Positions 7,730-20,414 of a stretch of DNA of 21,325 nucleotides are shown piece after piece. Where the stretch lies: IMG/VR virus record IMGVR_UViG_3300017760_000130, positions 1-21,325 of that record, one strand, 5' to 3'. The notes under the pieces were generated by a model. It did not search any database. It was given only the letters and a program-made list of their open reading frames with translations, and was not told the origin of the DNA. The DNA is from a virus. The position numbers and the translations under genes are program-made. How positions within the stretch are numbered: the stretch's first letter is position 1; every line of letters starts with the position of its first letter.

Positions 7730-9859
7730 ATGGCAGACGAACTAGATAAAAGAGTTAGTGAACTAGACAAACAACTTACCAAGGCTGCAAAAACCTTAGA
7801 AGATAATGTTAAACTCGAAGGAGAAAGAAACAGAGCAATTGCATCTTCTACTAGTGAACAGAAAGAATCATTTAAAAATTTAATTAATGATTTAAAAGAG
7901 GTTAGACCTGAAACTGCTAAAATCGTTGCAGATTTTAAAAGTGCTGGTGATGATACACTCAAAGGTGCTCTCTTAAATAAGAAAATGTCCGTTGCCATTG
8001 AAGCAGCAACCATTGCTACAACAGAAGGAATGGATGCTTTAACTGAAGAACAGTCAAAGGCACTAAGTCAAATTTTTGGAGATACTACAGAAAAACTATC
8101 TGAAGTTCTAGGACCTATTGCAAAACTTACTGAAGAGATAGCATCAACAGAAGAAGAAATTGCAAGGACAAAAGATTCTATATTTGAATTTGAATCTGCC
8201 ATTGCAAGTACCGAAAAAGATATCGCAGACCTTGTACTCAGAGAAGCAGAGTATAAGAAAGCAATTATTGCCCAAGAAAAACTTATGGCAGAACTTGATG
8301 CGAAGATGTCCGAAGAAGTGCATGATAATAATAAAAGAACTCATGCATTGCAAATAGCGGCAATCCAGGATAAAATTAACGCTGCTGTTGAAGAAAATGC
8401 TTTAGAAAAAGCAAATATAGATTCTATGTCTGCAAACAGACAAGAGTTATTAGAGACTCAACAATCTCAGTTAAGTATTGAAAAAAATATACTAAACAAT
8501 AACGAAATCACTCTACAAGAAAATTCAGATAAACAAGAATCTCTAATGAAACAAGAGACTGCTATCCGTGAAGAAATGTCTGCAAATATGGAACAGGCAA
8601 AGAATGACCAGTTATCAGGTCTTACTGACTTCTCTGACGGATTAAAAGGTCTTACAGGTTTCGACCTTATAGGTCAATTAGATGATGCCGTTAAGATGTT
8701 CAACAATGCACAAAAGGTTATGAGTGGAGTTGCACAAGGTTTCTCTAAAGGTGTTGAGTATATGAAAGGTATCAGTATAGAAGGTATGACTGAGAAATTC
8801 AATAATGTAATGGGTACAGTTCAGAAAGGTTTCAACTTTGCAAAAACAGGTCTTACAAAGATGGCCAAAAGATTCATGGTGACCATGAGTACATTCTTTA
8901 CATCAATGGTAACATTCTTAACACCTGTTATGATTGCAGCGGCAGGATTACTCATGTCAGCGGCACCTTGGATTCTATTAGGTCTTGCAGTAGTAGGAAT
9001 AGTCTTAGCAGGTATGAAACTATATGAAGAGTCTGAAGGATTTAAAGCAGCGATTGATACAGTCATAGGGTATTTTATGGATATCAAAGACTCAATCTTT
9101 AGAATCTTTGGTGGATTCTTTGACTTCTGGAAAGGTCTATTCACAGGAGACTTCGACTTAATGTTCTCTGGTCTTAAAGATGCATTTGGTGGAATATGGG
9201 ATTTAATCTCGGCACCATTCAAAGCAATCGGTGATTTCTTTAAGAATGTATTTGGTATTGATATCATGGCAAAACTAAAACAAATGGCAAAAGCAATATT
9301 GCCAGGTGTAGTTTACAGAGCATTATTCGATGATGATGTACCTGAAATGAATGAGAAAATGAAAGAGAAAGGATTAGATGCTGCTGAAGAGTCTGGTCTA
9401 TATGAGAAGAAGGGAATTGGTAGAGCATCAGTTGTTAATCCTGATATGATTATCACTGCACCTAATAATCAGTTGAACGCAATTCTTGCTGATGATGATA
9501 TTGGTGATGAAACTAAAGAGTTAATTATAAAAGAACTAGAGGCAAGAAAATCAATTATTGCAAGTTATAATGAGGCAAAAACTGCCTTAGATGCTGGTCA
9601 AACCAATCTAGCAGATGGTTCTGATGCAGAGACAATTATGGAATTTGCAGAAGAAGACATGGCATTGAGACGAGGTGCTCAAATCGATACTGCAACACAA
9701 GAGGCAAGACCAGATATTAATGCCGCGGCAAATGCAGTTGCTTCAGTTGTCCAACAGAATAATAATAACTCACAATCAACAACCAATGTGATGAACACTA
9801 AAGATTCTGCAAGGGATGAGAACGATAGATATTATGACGATATTATGGTTGGTGTCTAA
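7730..9859 (+). CDS. 29: tail tape-measure protein (gp29 counterpart)
   Basis: 709 aa, the longest protein in the window. Residues 1-300 are charged and strongly helical with heptad-like Glu/Lys/Leu/Ile repeats (long coiled coil). Residues ~380-435 are very hydrophobic (TFLTPVMIAAAGLLMSAAPW, then ILLGLAVVGIVLAG). A second amphipathic stretch follows (~455-540, with FGGIWDLISAPFKAIGDFF). Such coil-plus-hydrophobic layout and length fit a tape-measure protein, which sets tail length inside the tube. T4 gp29 has 590 aa. It follows the gp26/gp51 and two-TM genes. Its last 17 nt overlap the 3' end of the opposite-strand gene. Confidence 0.8.
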   Translation: MADELDKRVSELDKQLTKAAKTLEDNVKLEGERNRAIASSTSEQKESFKNLINDLKEVRPETAKIVADFKSAGDDTLKGALLNKKMSVAIEAATIATTEGMDALTEEQSKALSQIFGDTTEKLSEVLGPIAKLTEEIASTEEEIARTKDSIFEFESAIASTEKDIADLVLREAEYKKAIIAQEKLMAELDAKMSEEVHDNNKRTHALQIAAIQDKINAAVEENALEKANIDSMSANRQELLETQQSQLSIEKNILNNNEITLQENSDKQESLMKQETAIREEMSANMEQAKNDQLSGLTDFSDGLKGLTGFDLIGQLDDAVKMFNNAQKVMSGVAQGFSKGVEYMKGISIEGMTEKFNNVMGTVQKGFNFAKTGLTKMAKRFMVTMSTFFTSMVTFLTPVMIAAAGLLMSAAPWILLGLAVVGIVLAGMKLYEESEGFKAAIDTVIGYFMDIKDSIFRIFGGFFDFWKGLFTGDFDLMFSGLKDAFGGIWDLISAPFKAIGDFFKNVFGIDIMAKLKQMAKAILPGVVYRALFDDDVPEMNEKMKEKGLDAAEESGLYEKKGIGRASVVNPDMIITAPNNQLNAILADDDIGDETKELIIKELEARKSIIASYNEAKTALDAGQTNLADGSDAETIMEFAEEDMALRRGAQIDTATQEARPDINAAANAVASVVQQNNNNSQSTTNVMNTKDSARDENDRYYDDIMVGV

Positions 9860-10046
9860 ACTTAGACTTTCTTGGAATAACTTTTGTTTTATCTTTGTGC
9901 ATCTGAGTAGATGCGTGTGAAGGAGTTTCTTTACGAGACTTCAACTCTGGTTTTGGTTTACCAAAGATTTTCTCCCAATTATCAGCATAGAGTTCTTCAT
10001 TTGAGTTCCTTCTTTTAGAACCTTTTCCCCCATGCCAGTTGCTCAT
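9843..10046 (-). CDS. small conserved phage protein (GKGSKRR family)
   Basis: 67 aa, highly basic and Lys/Ser/Arg-rich. The N-terminal pattern [20 protein letters not shown], then ADNWEKIFGK, recurs in short hypothetical proteins of many marine phages. Function unknown; the basic composition would allow nucleic acid binding. Its ATG overlaps the bS21 stop through TAATG, so the two are translated together. The stop lies inside the tape-measure gene on the other strand (tail-to-tail overlap). Confidence 0.75.
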   Translation of the reverse strand: MSNWHGGKGSKRRNSNEELYADNWEKIFGKPKPELKSRKETPSHASTQMHKDKTKVIPRKSKFRHQP

Positions 10047-10279
10047 TATCTCGGTCTATAACCTTTAGTGGACGCTCTCTTTGCATCAAGTTTCTTTCTT
10101 CTTTTGATGTCTTGATTCTTTTGATTCTTGGTGGTATTAGGTTTCTCGTAATACTGTCTATCACGAACCTCTTGAACTATACCTGCCCTCTCACATTGTT
10201 TCTTAAATCTCCTAAGCATTCTATCGAAAGGTTCCTCTTGTCGATTCTTAGGGTTGATTTTTGGTCTCACTTCTGGCAT
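10046..10279 (-). CDS. rpsU: phage-encoded ribosomal protein bS21
   Basis: 77 aa. The block [20 protein letters not shown], then [13 protein letters not shown], is the core of bacterial bS21, a small-subunit protein near the mRNA exit and anti-Shine-Dalgarno region. The tail ([19 protein letters not shown]) is basic as in bS21. ACAGGAG sits 6 nt before the ATG. Several marine phages are known to encode bS21; it is thought to join host ribosomes and bias translation to phage mRNA. A structured RNA region precedes it at 10302-10456. Forms a two-gene unit with the downstream 67-aa gene. Confidence 0.9.
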
Positions 10280-10301
10280 AATTCTCCTGTTTAAAATAAA
10301 T

Positions 10302-10456
10302 GTATAGTCGCCCCACGCTTTACAGCATCCCGCTCTATACCGATTATTCCGCTATTAGCTAATAATCTTTCCCTTACTTGGTGCCCCCATTTTTGTCCAC
10401 GGTCCAAGTCTGCCCTTGTTCTTGCATCACTTATACATAATATAAACACAAGGGCA
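10302..10456 (-). ncRNA. hairpin-rich leader RNA of the bS21 gene (putative)
   Basis: A 190-nt gap between gp32 and bS21 that is visibly richer in G and C than the rest. On the minus-strand RNA four stems can be drawn. UGCCCUUGU/ACAAGGGCA has 9 bp (10448-10456 with 10411-10419). ACUUGG/CCAAGU has 6 bp (10404-10409 with 10376-10381). GAUUAUU/AAUAAUC has 7 bp (10361-10367 with 10342-10348). GUAUAG/CUAUAC (10335-10340 with 10302-10307) encloses AUGCU-GUAA-AGCGU, a 5-bp stem with one wobble capped by a GNRA tetraloop. After the last stem comes an AU-rich stretch and the bS21 ribosome site. No known RNA family is recognised. An r-protein leader is the inference. The minus strand also holds an open frame of ~60 codons with no ATG. 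Confidence 0.5.
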
Positions 10457-10466
10457 CCCAACTCAA
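10437..10466 (-). promoter_or_regulatory. possible sigma-70 promoter for the bS21 leader
   Basis: Minus strand TTGAGT (10461-10466), 18-bp spacer, TATTAT (10437-10442). Transcription would begin near 10430, after the 5' arm of the first (9-bp) stem. Only read-through transcripts from gp32 could then form that stem. Confidence 0.4.
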
Positions 10467-10469
10467 AAA

Positions 10470-11369
10470 CTAGCTATCTTCGGCCAGTTTTTTGAAGTAA
10501 TCCATCGCGTCGTCACCATTGCTTGACTGTTCAGACGATGATTCTGCTGATGCGATTACAGGTTCACTAGCAACACTTTCAGTGTTCACATTTGACCATG
10601 GCACTTCTTCCTGGTCTTCTGCAATACTTTCTGCTGTGCTACCTGATATTGCACCTGATAGACCTAATACTCTATCAAGTTTCTCTTTGAGTTCGTCATA
10701 AGACTTAAACTCATCTGGAGAGATTACTTCACTTAGAGAATGAACTTGACTAAATGTAGAGTTAATCATTGCTTCATCACCTAATGGAGATGTAGAATCA
10801 AACTCTGATTTGTCATAGTTCCAGTAACCATCAACTTTTCTAATTTTGATTTTGAAGTTTGCACCTTCAGTCATATCAAATGGGTTGATTGCACTTTCAT
10901 CCTCAAATGCTGGAGAGATTGCCTCTTTGAGTTGTTCAAAGATTTTCTTTCCAAATCTGTATTTGAAAACTCTTCCTTCATTGTCTGGATTCTTAGGGTC
11001 TGAAACAACATAAACATTTGAGACATAGTGAAGTCTACGCTTCTGCTTTCTCGCTTGTTCTTTGTTTGCTTCGATACCTGAATTCCACAATGTAGTATTG
11101 TATTCAGACACAGGGTCTTTTTTATTAAGAGTCGTTAAAGACTTCTCAATATACCACCCACCAGGTCCTTGAAAACCATGGTCCCAATATGAAACCCACG
11201 GCATTTCTTCTCCTTGTGGTGTTGGTAAAAAACGAACTACTGCATAACCGTTACCTGATTTATCAAGTTCTGGTTTCCACATAGTATCGTCATTGTAGGA
11301 TTTTTTCTCACCTTGTGCGGGTGAAGCAGTTTCCATCGCTGCTCTTAGCTTATCTAATGATGCTGACAT
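10470..11369 (-). CDS. 32: gp32-like single-stranded DNA-binding protein
   Basis: Coats single-stranded DNA in replication, recombination and repair and recruits gp59. The 299 aa match T4 gp32 (301 aa). The core includes GYAVVRFLPTP, MPWVSYWDHGFQGPGGWYIE, then NEGRVFKYRFGKKIFEQLKE, all gp32 hallmarks. The C-terminus is acidic and Ser-rich, ending DDAMDYFKKLAEDS, as for the protein-interaction tail. There is no cysteine in the whole protein, so the T4 zinc site (C77, C87, C90 with His64) is missing; the region reads DPVSEYNTTLW. AGGAG lies upstream. The leader has regulatory features listed separately. Confidence 0.93.
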   Translation of the reverse strand: MSASLDKLRAAMETASPAQGEKKSYNDDTMWKPELDKSGNGYAVVRFLPTPQGEEMPWVSYWDHGFQGPGGWYIEKSLTTLNKKDPVSEYNTTLWNSGIEANKEQARKQKRRLHYVSNVYVVSDPKNPDNEGRVFKYRFGKKIFEQLKEAISPAFEDESAINPFDMTEGANFKIKIRKVDGYWNYDKSEFDSTSPLGDEAMINSTFSQVHSLSEVISPDEFKSYDELKEKLDRVLGLSGAISGSTAESIAEDQEEVPWSNVNTESVASEPVIASAESSSEQSSNGDDAMDYFKKLAEDS

Positions 11370-11505: not shown

Positions 11506-11521
11506 GGGTATATTTATACCC
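11506..11521 (-). promoter_or_regulatory. late promoter inside a dyad (GGGTATAAATATACCC)
   Basis: The minus strand has TATAAATA (11511-11518) within a 7-bp inverted repeat GGGTATA/TATACCC. It lies 10 nt after the gp59 stop and 136 nt before gp32. It would add late transcription of gp32 to the early promoter downstream. The dyad has no U-run after it, so it is not a standard terminator. Confidence 0.6.
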
Positions 11522-18922: not shown

Positions 18923-19504
18923 TTATTTAGTAAATCTTTCCATGTCCCTTAGAGTTTCTTTATCACTTTGTACTGACTGGTAGTTTGCATGTGCCTGTAG
19001 GGTTACATCTGCAATCTCGTAATCTGGATAAGATGTAATCAGTTTGTAAATCAGACCTGCAACATCTTGGTGTTTGACACTAGGTAAACTTTCGTCATTA
19101 AGAAGACCAAGATTAAGTGTGGTCATTTTATATCTCTTATTGGAATTGTATTGTAGATTGTTTGCAAGGTGATTGAGTTGTGCTTTCTCACTTGCATACA
19201 TATAACCTTTTGATATGTTTGGTTGACTTGCACGACTGGAGATATTGATAATGTATTTTGTCTTCTCACCTTCCCACGCTTCATGTGCAATGGATAGAAT
19301 CTTTGCTTGGTCTTCATGTGCAAGATTGATTAGAACATCAGCAGGTTCATAACCACCGAATACCCAACAGTTTCTTCCATTCATTGTTATGTCTTCACAT
19401 CGAATCGGGTCTACTCTAAAGGTGTTCCCTAAATGTGGTGTTGCTTCTAGTGTGTCTTTAATTATCTTTGCAAGACCACTACTTCCTGTTATTGCTATTC
19501 TCAT
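18923..19504 (-). CDS. SDR/NAD(P)-dependent epimerase-like protein
   Basis: 193 aa, shorter than typical SDR proteins (about 250). The N-terminus MRIAITGSSGLAKIIKDTL has the Rossmann Gly motif. Middle: YIINISSRAS (Ser) and YMYASEKAQLNHL with the YxxxK pair Y103/K107, the catalytic set of short-chain dehydrogenases and nucleotide-sugar epimerases. The C-terminal substrate domain appears reduced. It overlaps the radical SAM gene by 26 nt, which suggests the two act in one pathway. Substrate unknown. Confidence 0.75.
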   Translation of the reverse strand: MRIAITGSSGLAKIIKDTLEATPHLGNTFRVDPIRCEDITMNGRNCWVFGGYEPADVLINLAHEDQAKILSIAHEAWEGEKTKYIINISSRASQPNISKGYMYASEKAQLNHLANNLQYNSNKRYKMTTLNLGLLNDESLPSVKHQDVAGLIYKLITSYPDYEIADVTLQAHANYQSVQSDKETLRDMERFTK

Positions 19505-20414
19505 AATATTCCTTAACTATATCAAATGACGGTTTTCCAAATAGTGAACCGTCTACACTACATTTATTACAAGGTGAATGACTTCTATCACCTTTCATTA
19601 ATCTCTTACGAATCTTTGTCATAGGTTTAGAGAACCATACATCATGTAAAGATTGTTGTAAAAGATTACCTACAACATGTTCTCTTCCCCAATCGTTAGA
19701 ACAGAACAATACATCTCCGTTCCAATCGACAAACATTTTATAGAATGGGTAATGACATGGTTTGCCTTTTAGATTCTCTACAGTATCATCTTCAACACCA
19801 ACCCAATCTACTACACCACTTCTATTATTTAGTATGAGTCCGTGTTTCTCAAAATCTCCCCAATGCATTCTGAACTTATACTTATCTGTCGGTATATCTG
19901 CCCACAATAACATGTCTTCAAACTTATCCATCTGTTCTATACCATCGTACAGATTAATATAGATTAAATCTAAACCTGAATTGTGTATAAGTCCTTCAAG
20001 GTATTTGTGGTCAAGTTTATCTCCGTTAGTATTACACTCTAATGTTGCATAGGGTAATTCTGTTCTGAATATCTTTACTATCTCTATGAAGTCTGGATTA
20101 AGGAGATTCTCTCCGAATCCACTGAATGATATCTTACCTTGAAAGTTATTCTCTCCTAATTCTTCTGCAATGATTAATGCACCCTTAGTTGTAAGGTGTA
20201 GATTTCTATTAGGGAATACTTTAGGGTCATGTCGAGGACAAAACACACAGGTTCTATTACAAAGTTCTGTTGTGTTTATCTCTACAGTGAGAATAGAATC
20301 TAAAGGTTCACTTGTCTTAACTTTATCCCAATGTTTCTTTTCCTGTTCTCTTCTATGTTCCAAGAAATCATATTGGTCTACTGCCTGAATCGGAATGTTT
20401 CTATTATCCGACAT
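19479..20414 (-). CDS. radical SAM/SPASM enzyme
   Basis: 311 aa. The Fe-S motif CNRTCVFC (C52, C56, C59; CxxxCxxC) is followed by SGFGENLLNP (~98-107). The C-terminal SPASM-like domain carries C220, C238, C282 and C285 (FCSNDWG; SPCNKCSVDG), enough for an auxiliary Fe-S cluster. SPASM enzymes modify peptides, sugars or other substrates by radical chemistry. The substrate is not evident. The start overlaps the upstream gene by 11 nt and only a weak ribosome site is seen, so expression is likely coupled. Confidence 0.87.
   Translation of the reverse strand: MSDNRNIPIQAVDQYDFLEHRREQEKKHWDKVKTSEPLDSILTVEINTTELCNRTCVFCPRHDPKVFPNRNLHLTTKGALIIAEELGENNFQGKISFSGFGENLLNPDFIEIVKIFRTELPYATLECNTNGDKLDHKYLEGLIHNSGLDLIYINLYDGIEQMDKFEDMLLWADIPTDKYKFRMHWGDFEKHGLILNNRSGVVDWVGVEDDTVENLKGKPCHYPFYKMFVDWNGDVLFCSNDWGREHVVGNLLQQSLHDVWFSKPMTKIRKRLMKGDRSHSPCNKCSVDGSLFGKPSFDIVKEYYENSNNRK

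Follow-up and report, generated by a model that had tools for sequence, protein, structure and literature searches.

The window analysed here, a stretch of 21,325 nt from a virus (IMG/VR record IMGVR_UViG_3300017760_000130), carries the genes for gp32 and bS21 on either side of a gap. An earlier note, made from the sequence alone, described this gap as hairpin-rich and GC-rich and read it as a leader RNA by which bS21 could control its own synthesis. The locus raises two questions, namely whether the gap encodes a conserved structured RNA and, if so, with which gene that RNA is associated.

Structure of the RNA in the gp32-bS21 gap

All four stems proposed in the earlier note are present at 10302-10456 (-), and the G+C content of the gap is indeed elevated, at 0.41 compared with ~0.35 in its surroundings. 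The gap with 12 nt of bS21 folds with an MFE of -54 kcal/mol (z = -3.4), a value equalled by 1 of 200 shuffled sequences. Model R1 scores the window at 166 bits (E 4.5e-39), a score obtained by construction because the window sequence sat in the training alignment. The coordinates of the features are listed in Table 1.

Table 1 Features of the gp32-RNA-bS21 locus in the window
Feature	Coordinates	Strand	Remarks
TATAAATA, T4-type late-promoter motif	11511-11518	(-)	exact match, 142 nt before gp32
gp32, ssDNA-binding protein	10470-11369	(-)	PF08804, E 1.5e-40
gp32-bS21 gap	10280-10469	(-)	
Structured noncoding RNA core, type 1	10295-10463	(-)	model R1, 168 positions
P1, 9 bp	10456-10448 with 10419-10411	(-)	
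P1 5' arm, TGCCCTTGT	10448-10456	(-)	covarying column pairs
P1 loop, 28 nt, with TATATTATG	10447-10420	(-)	
P1 3' arm, ACAAGGGCA	10411-10419	(-)	
P2, 6 bp, 5' arm ACTTGG with 3' arm CCAAGT	10409-10404 with 10381-10376	(-)	
J2/3 linker, AAGGGAAA	10368-10375	(-)	conserved single-stranded purines; invariant columns
P3, 7 bp, 5' arm GATTATT with 3' arm AATAATC	10367-10361 with 10348-10342	(-)	
P4, 6 bp, 5' arm GTATAG with 3' arm CTATAC	10340-10335 with 10307-10302	(-)	
P4 continuation, 2 bp	G10333-C10310 and C10332-G10311	(-)	
Apical hairpin in P4, ATGCT-GTAA-AGCGT, 5-bp stem, GUAA loop	10315-10328	(-)	type 1 only
bS21 gene	10046-10279	(-)	PF01165, E 1.5e-14; 3' neighbour of the RNA in type 1 only
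orf67, WHGGKGSKRR small protein	9843-10046	(-)	last gene of the type-1 operon

The loop of P2 contains invariant CGUGGA...GGGG, the J2/3 linker is part of the near-invariant AGUA[AG]GGGNAA, and the loop of P3 has a conserved GCGG. A large internal loop breaks the pairing of P4. In the apical hairpin, UGCU and UAA are near-invariant; the hairpin is absent from the two type-2 matches displayed (type 2 is introduced below), and it is weakly tested because its pairs change on one side only. The Shine-Dalgarno sequence of bS21 (AGGAG, 10288-10284 (-)) lies 3' of P4 and is unpaired, in agreement with the ribosome site that had been placed after the last stem. No intrinsic terminator, defined as a GC-rich hairpin directly before a T-run, is found in the window's gap. 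The small protein encoded by orf67 is conserved and has no Pfam match. Elsewhere in the window, positions 19479-20414 (-) encode a protein of 311 aa that appears radical SAM-like, by eye only, from a cysteine motif of the CxxxCxxC type (CNRTCVFC).

Covariation and absence of coding conservation

A bS21 query of IMG/VR returned 80 loci, and a motif scan of the same collection returned at least 119 stretches, partly from the same contigs; the pooled loci hold at least 92 distinct RNA core sequences, designated type 1. In the gp32-bearing loci of the bS21 query, the gap is either 181-227 nt or ~1,058-1,076 nt long and begins with the same RNA.

Covariation was evaluated on a MAFFT alignment of 56 distinct, diverse marine sequences that was fitted to no structure. 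Standard pairs fill 86.8% of the pair cells, compared with 33-42% when the partners are slid. The covariation score is 0.522, compared with 0.184 +/- 0.008 for shuffled alignments (0 of 500 reach the observed score) and 0.07-0.10 for slid partners, which serve as the sole control for relatedness in place of a tree-based null such as R-scape. The covarying pairs that the earlier note had proposed to seek in marine relatives are thus found, far above controls.

The four helices differ in how they vary. Specifically, P1 is an exact inverted repeat of 5-9 bp in 77 distinct regions (7-9 bp in nearly all), and its letters change almost freely across these sequences. Two pairs of P2 covary, taking three and four pair types, and neither is broken in any of the 56 sequences; the other four are invariant. 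P3 shows double changes at six of its seven pairs, with 94% of cells paired. In P4, 98% of the outer and 97% of the inner pairs are formed, and the pair of G10333 undergoes a double change from GC to AU in 18 of the 56 sequences; covariation is seen at nearly every pair of P3 and P4. An alignment of 84 distinct sequences fitted to the model gives higher covariation figures, as expected of fitting, and in a scan of all its column pairs, each of the 18 top-ranking pairs by APC-corrected MI belongs to the structure. The loops and linkers of type 1 contain 39-51 invariant columns.

Three further candidate features were rejected. An extension of P2 by two pairs is partly off register, and columns 77-106 never pair; the column-pair scan gives no strong additional covarying pairs of the kind a pseudoknot would leave; and, as judged by eye, the J2/3 and L3 motifs do not preserve the GGA triplet of a CsrA decoy.

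The pattern of substitution also bears on whether the element acts as RNA or as DNA. A DNA-level element, for example a replication origin whose G-rich transcript would serve as an R-loop primer, would fit the G-clusters, the location at the replication gene cluster and the promoter motif just upstream in type 2. Nevertheless, compensatory change in four helices, G-U pairs included, indicates a folded RNA, and we consider a DNA-level element very unlikely.

Each of the three forward frames is broken by stops in 80-84 of the 92 sequences, and the variable segments show no preference for lengths in multiples of three, all residues modulo 3 being represented. The protein-coding conservation that would have spoken for the open frame on this strand is therefore absent; the window's open frame is accidental, and the gap is noncoding. 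Covariation and the absence of coding conservation together bear out the view of a functional, conserved structured RNA. A comparison with the ribosomal-protein leaders of Rfam, also suggested at the outset, yielded no family: Rfam 15 gives no match at gathering level, none at E<=5 for the window or the gap and none at E<=1 for eight relatives. R1 matches exactly once in seven of eight large contigs (86-151 kb), the eighth being a contig of subtype 2a that R1 missed.

Gene order in type 1

Among the matches listed, gp32 lies directly 5' of the RNA in 197 of 197 loci (92 distinct sequences), and in all type-1 relatives the gp32 stop is within ~18 nt of the start of the RNA model. Because the contigs are related and some of those in the 197 were fetched twice, such locus counts are not independent events. 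Downstream, bS21 is the next of the genes tested for in all 189 type-1 loci with enough DNA, again among the matches listed. The distance between RNA and bS21 is ~800-900 nt in 37 type-1 loci, and there the RNA remains beside gp32. In the loci inspected of these 37, L024 (2112-2999) and L207 (5608-6495), the inserted gene has 295 codons and is methyltransferase-like by its TCPPYG methyltransferase-type motif.

A TATAAT-like promoter sequence is seen between the RNA and bS21 in six loci (L033, L034, L057, L064, L071 and L072), which suggests that bS21 may be expressed separately there.

Distant homologues behind gp32

In a query with a gp32 alignment, loci whose gp32 is only 54-61% identical gave weak, positioned R1 matches behind gp32 (24.2 bits in L287 and 22.8 bits in L294). 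A pattern derived from loci of this kind retrieved 76 contigs, designated type 2; wherever gp32 is on the contig (71 of 71), its stop is followed by the motif at a distance of 121-139 nt. With R1, 22 of the 46 type-2 loci that were tested are recovered at E<0.2, each time behind gp32, with best E values of 3.6e-4 (L486) and 4.7e-4 (L469) in 385 kb. A second model, R2, built on subtype 2b, reaches all 14 loci of subtype 2a that were tried (E 1.5e-11 to 3.4e-5) and gives no score against type 1 at E<10. The core motifs GGNAAG, GCGG, GCGGG and GGGGC are common to both types. Homology between the two types is therefore supported by CM scores that are modest (<=26 bits), by identical position and by shared motifs. 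The 2b alignments covary themselves, with double changes in 21 of 48 predicted pairs; folding of single type-2 sequences is often no better than that of shuffles, and the case there is carried by covariation.

The surroundings of the type-2 RNA are different on the 3' side. bS21 is located ~2.65-3.2 kb upstream in 45 contigs (before gp59, where checked) and downstream in 0 of 76. In 2a, a homologue of orf67 is usually directly 3' of the RNA. In 2b, a minus-strand coding sequence follows immediately in ~30 loci and there is no co-directional gene, so the RNA ends the operon. A convergent gene alone follows the RNA in about half of the type-2 contigs, and in these no mRNA is therefore left to regulate.

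This gene order decides against the leader proposed in the earlier note, in which bS21 would bind the RNA in its own 5' UTR and repress its own translation. The constant order in type 1, with bS21 next or next after the methyltransferase-like gene in the 189 loci listed, is what such a leader would show, and bS21 is known to bind another structured noncoding RNA, OLE (PMC12054373). However, the RNA tracks gp32: it persists where bS21 lies ~2.7 kb upstream and never downstream, and it stays by gp32 where a gene is inserted between it and bS21. In addition, the Shine-Dalgarno sequence of bS21 is outside the structure, and no CCUCC that could mimic an anti-Shine-Dalgarno is found in 92 type-1 or 54 type-2 sequences. 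We reject the leader on account of the type-2 gene order and the type-1 insertions, and consider it quite improbable.

A riboswitch-like element, which would bind a ligand and act on whichever gene follows, is extremely unlikely for related reasons. Many invariant bases are unpaired, and in types 1 and 2a the gene directly 3' of the RNA is bS21, the methyltransferase-like gene or orf67, as such an element would require; but 2b has no same-strand gene downstream, the downstream genes share no function, and the window has no expression platform, with no terminator and a free Shine-Dalgarno sequence. With high confidence, we conclude that the RNA in the gap belongs to a new structured family, linked to gp32, and is not a bS21 leader.

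Late-promoter motif in type 2

The consensus of T4 late promoters, TATAAATA, occurs exactly once within 90 nt after the gp32 stop and ahead of the RNA core in each of the 54 distinct type-2 sequences that include gp32. Its position after the stop is 6-10 in thirty 2b sequences, 32 in one 2b sequence and 27-28 in all 2a sequences; a reading of the latter places it in the first hairpin's loop. In the first 60 nt after the gp32 stop of L432-L506, most 2b sequences have the motif within an inverted repeat, GTTATAAATACTATAAC.

By contrast, the motif is present in 0 of 84 distinct type-1 sequences from the end of gp32 through P1. The difference (54/54 compared with 0/84) suggests a stand-alone transcript in type 2 and leaves one unsupported by this motif in type 1, in which the RNA may be only a UTR. 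The window has three matches to the motif, no more than expected by chance. The match before gp32 is a possible source of a gp32-RNA-bS21 transcript; of 84 distinct type-1 loci, however, only 24 have the motif in the ~350 nt preceding gp32.

A promoter in or near the first stem had been suggested from the window. The suggestion holds in type 2, through the late-promoter motif, and is weak in the window itself, where the putative promoter in the P1 loop (TTGAGT...TATATT or TATTAT) has 9 of 12 matches and its -35 element is limited to the window's closest relatives. A sigma-70 promoter in P1 was rejected as a family feature, as a -10-like hexamer is present in only 35 of 77 distinct P1 loops.

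Other carriers and the region behind gp32

Host or prophage copies were sought by scanning 84,980 species genomes with a pattern; the 62 matches obtained are scattered. Among these, only L207 is strong with R1, and four others score 15.7-23.1 bits. L207 (JAAXIF010000105.1) is a 121-kb contig in a Sphingobacteriales MAG with gp59, gp32, the RNA, the methyltransferase-like gene and bS21. The genes around the RNA are those of this phage. L207 is therefore a phage contig that was binned with a bacterium, and a host or prophage RNA was rejected.

No isolate phage record carrying the RNA was found by blastn with the window or a type-2 RNA, and R1 gives nothing significant in HTVC008M, Melnitz-3, S-SKS1, S-SM1 or RB14; HTVC008M has bS21 at 91,228 without this RNA. 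In term searches, papers on pelagimyophages and viral bS21 (PMC7029224, PMC6375957, PMC8163748, PMC9723584) showed no mention of a gp32 RNA or bS21 leader. A text search of the open-access literature returned no description of the RNA, an absence that is not proof.

An ordinary intrinsic terminator (GC hairpin and T-run) comes after gp32 in HTVC008M and in the OM43 phage Melnitz-3, and the same is seen by eye in many RNA-less gp32 relatives (among L290-L351). These terminators bear on the main rival explanation, in which the RNA would be a cis-acting element of the gp32 mRNA 3' UTR that stabilises, processes or ends the transcript, replacing the intrinsic terminator. The fixed location directly behind gp32, the terminator at the same place in RNA-less relatives and the lack of a separate late promoter in type 1 are all consistent with such an element. 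However, the invariant loop and linker columns exceed the need of a stabiliser or terminator, the window's gap has no terminator-like hairpin, and in type 2 the late-promoter motif comes after gp32 and before the RNA core, so that a transcript from it would contain the RNA but not gp32. We regard action in cis as possible, with the balance of the evidence leaning against it.

Comparison with known RNAs

In Flavobacteriales, rpsU is controlled through an extended Shine-Dalgarno sequence (PMC9976891). As in this system and in bacterial ribosomal-protein leaders, the phage RNA lies beside a ribosomal-protein gene, that of bS21, in type 1 only. Unlike them, it follows gp32 and is retained where bS21 lies upstream; in 2b no gene is left for it to control, and no Rfam leader matches it. 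OLE RNA is likewise a highly structured noncoding RNA associated with bS21 (PMC12054373), an association that for the phage RNA is one of genome company only. OLE is ~600 nt long and its bS21 site is a Shine-Dalgarno/anti-Shine-Dalgarno mimic with CCUCCU (PMC12054373), whereas the phage RNA is ~170 nt long. CCUCC occurs in 0 of 92 type-1 and 0 of 54 type-2 phage RNAs, which also lack an Rfam match to OLE.

GOLLD, HEARO and IMES are orphan structured RNAs from metagenomes or phages, mostly environmental, that were found by covariation. The phage RNA is like them (see also PMC2864571) in being found by covariation and mostly environmental; it differs in having no Rfam 15 match, in its fixed gp32 neighbourhood and in the late-promoter motif of type 2.

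The stable RNAs C and D of T4 are noncoding RNAs of a T4-type phage as well, but they are located in the tRNA cluster, and R1 is blank in the genome of RB14, a T4-type phage. T4 gene 32 has a translational operator pseudoknot upstream of the gene, in its own leader. Both the operator and the phage RNA are RNA structures at gene 32; the phage RNA is located downstream instead.

Proposed role of the RNA

The reading that we favour, with slightly better than even confidence, is that the element is a gp32-linked late noncoding RNA of marine T4-like phages that would act in trans. In type 2, the RNA would be made as its own late transcript, as the TATAAATA motif suggests. In type 1, including the window, it would form the 3' portion of the gp32 transcript, which may also carry bS21, and would perhaps then be processed. 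The RNA, stable in late infection, would offer its conserved loops (CGUGGA...GGGG, AGUARGGGNAA, GCGG and CGGG...GGGG) to a protein or ribonucleoprotein. The near-invariant parts are mostly single-stranded and G-rich and are carried on freely varying helices, so the RNA is probably read by a protein or ribonucleoprotein and not by pairing with a target.

A candidate partner is the ribosome that carries bS21, since this bS21 is also present on RNA-bearing contigs with enough flank, an association that may reflect shared ancestry only. A complex of this kind has a precedent in the binding of bS21 to the structured noncoding RNA OLE in Halalkalibacterium (PMC12054373), although the mimic used there is absent from the phage RNA. 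Phage bS21 is expressed late in other phages (PMC9723584). A more specific version, in which the late RNA and phage bS21 (or the bS21-substituted ribosome) would form a phage RNA-protein machine that redirects host translation, is rather unlikely. If that version were true, a noncoding RNA and a ribosomal protein, both viral, would act jointly on the ribosome.

The RNA would represent a widespread, previously unrecognised family of ocean-phage noncoding RNAs whose core is strongly conserved. It occurs as a single copy in the large contigs that were tested, and in type-2 phages it is apparently a late gene in its own right. To our knowledge, few phage noncoding RNAs are this conserved, and almost none has an assigned function. 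The link to gp32 and the company of phage bS21 provide concrete partners to test. Gaps behind T4-like replication genes, usually blank in annotation, can hold RNA genes.

Behind gp32 in L266 (3377-3583; Melnitz-3), L297, L299 and L325, all without this RNA, ~80-130 nt of noncoding sequence precede the terminator; these stretches may contain other structured 3' regions.
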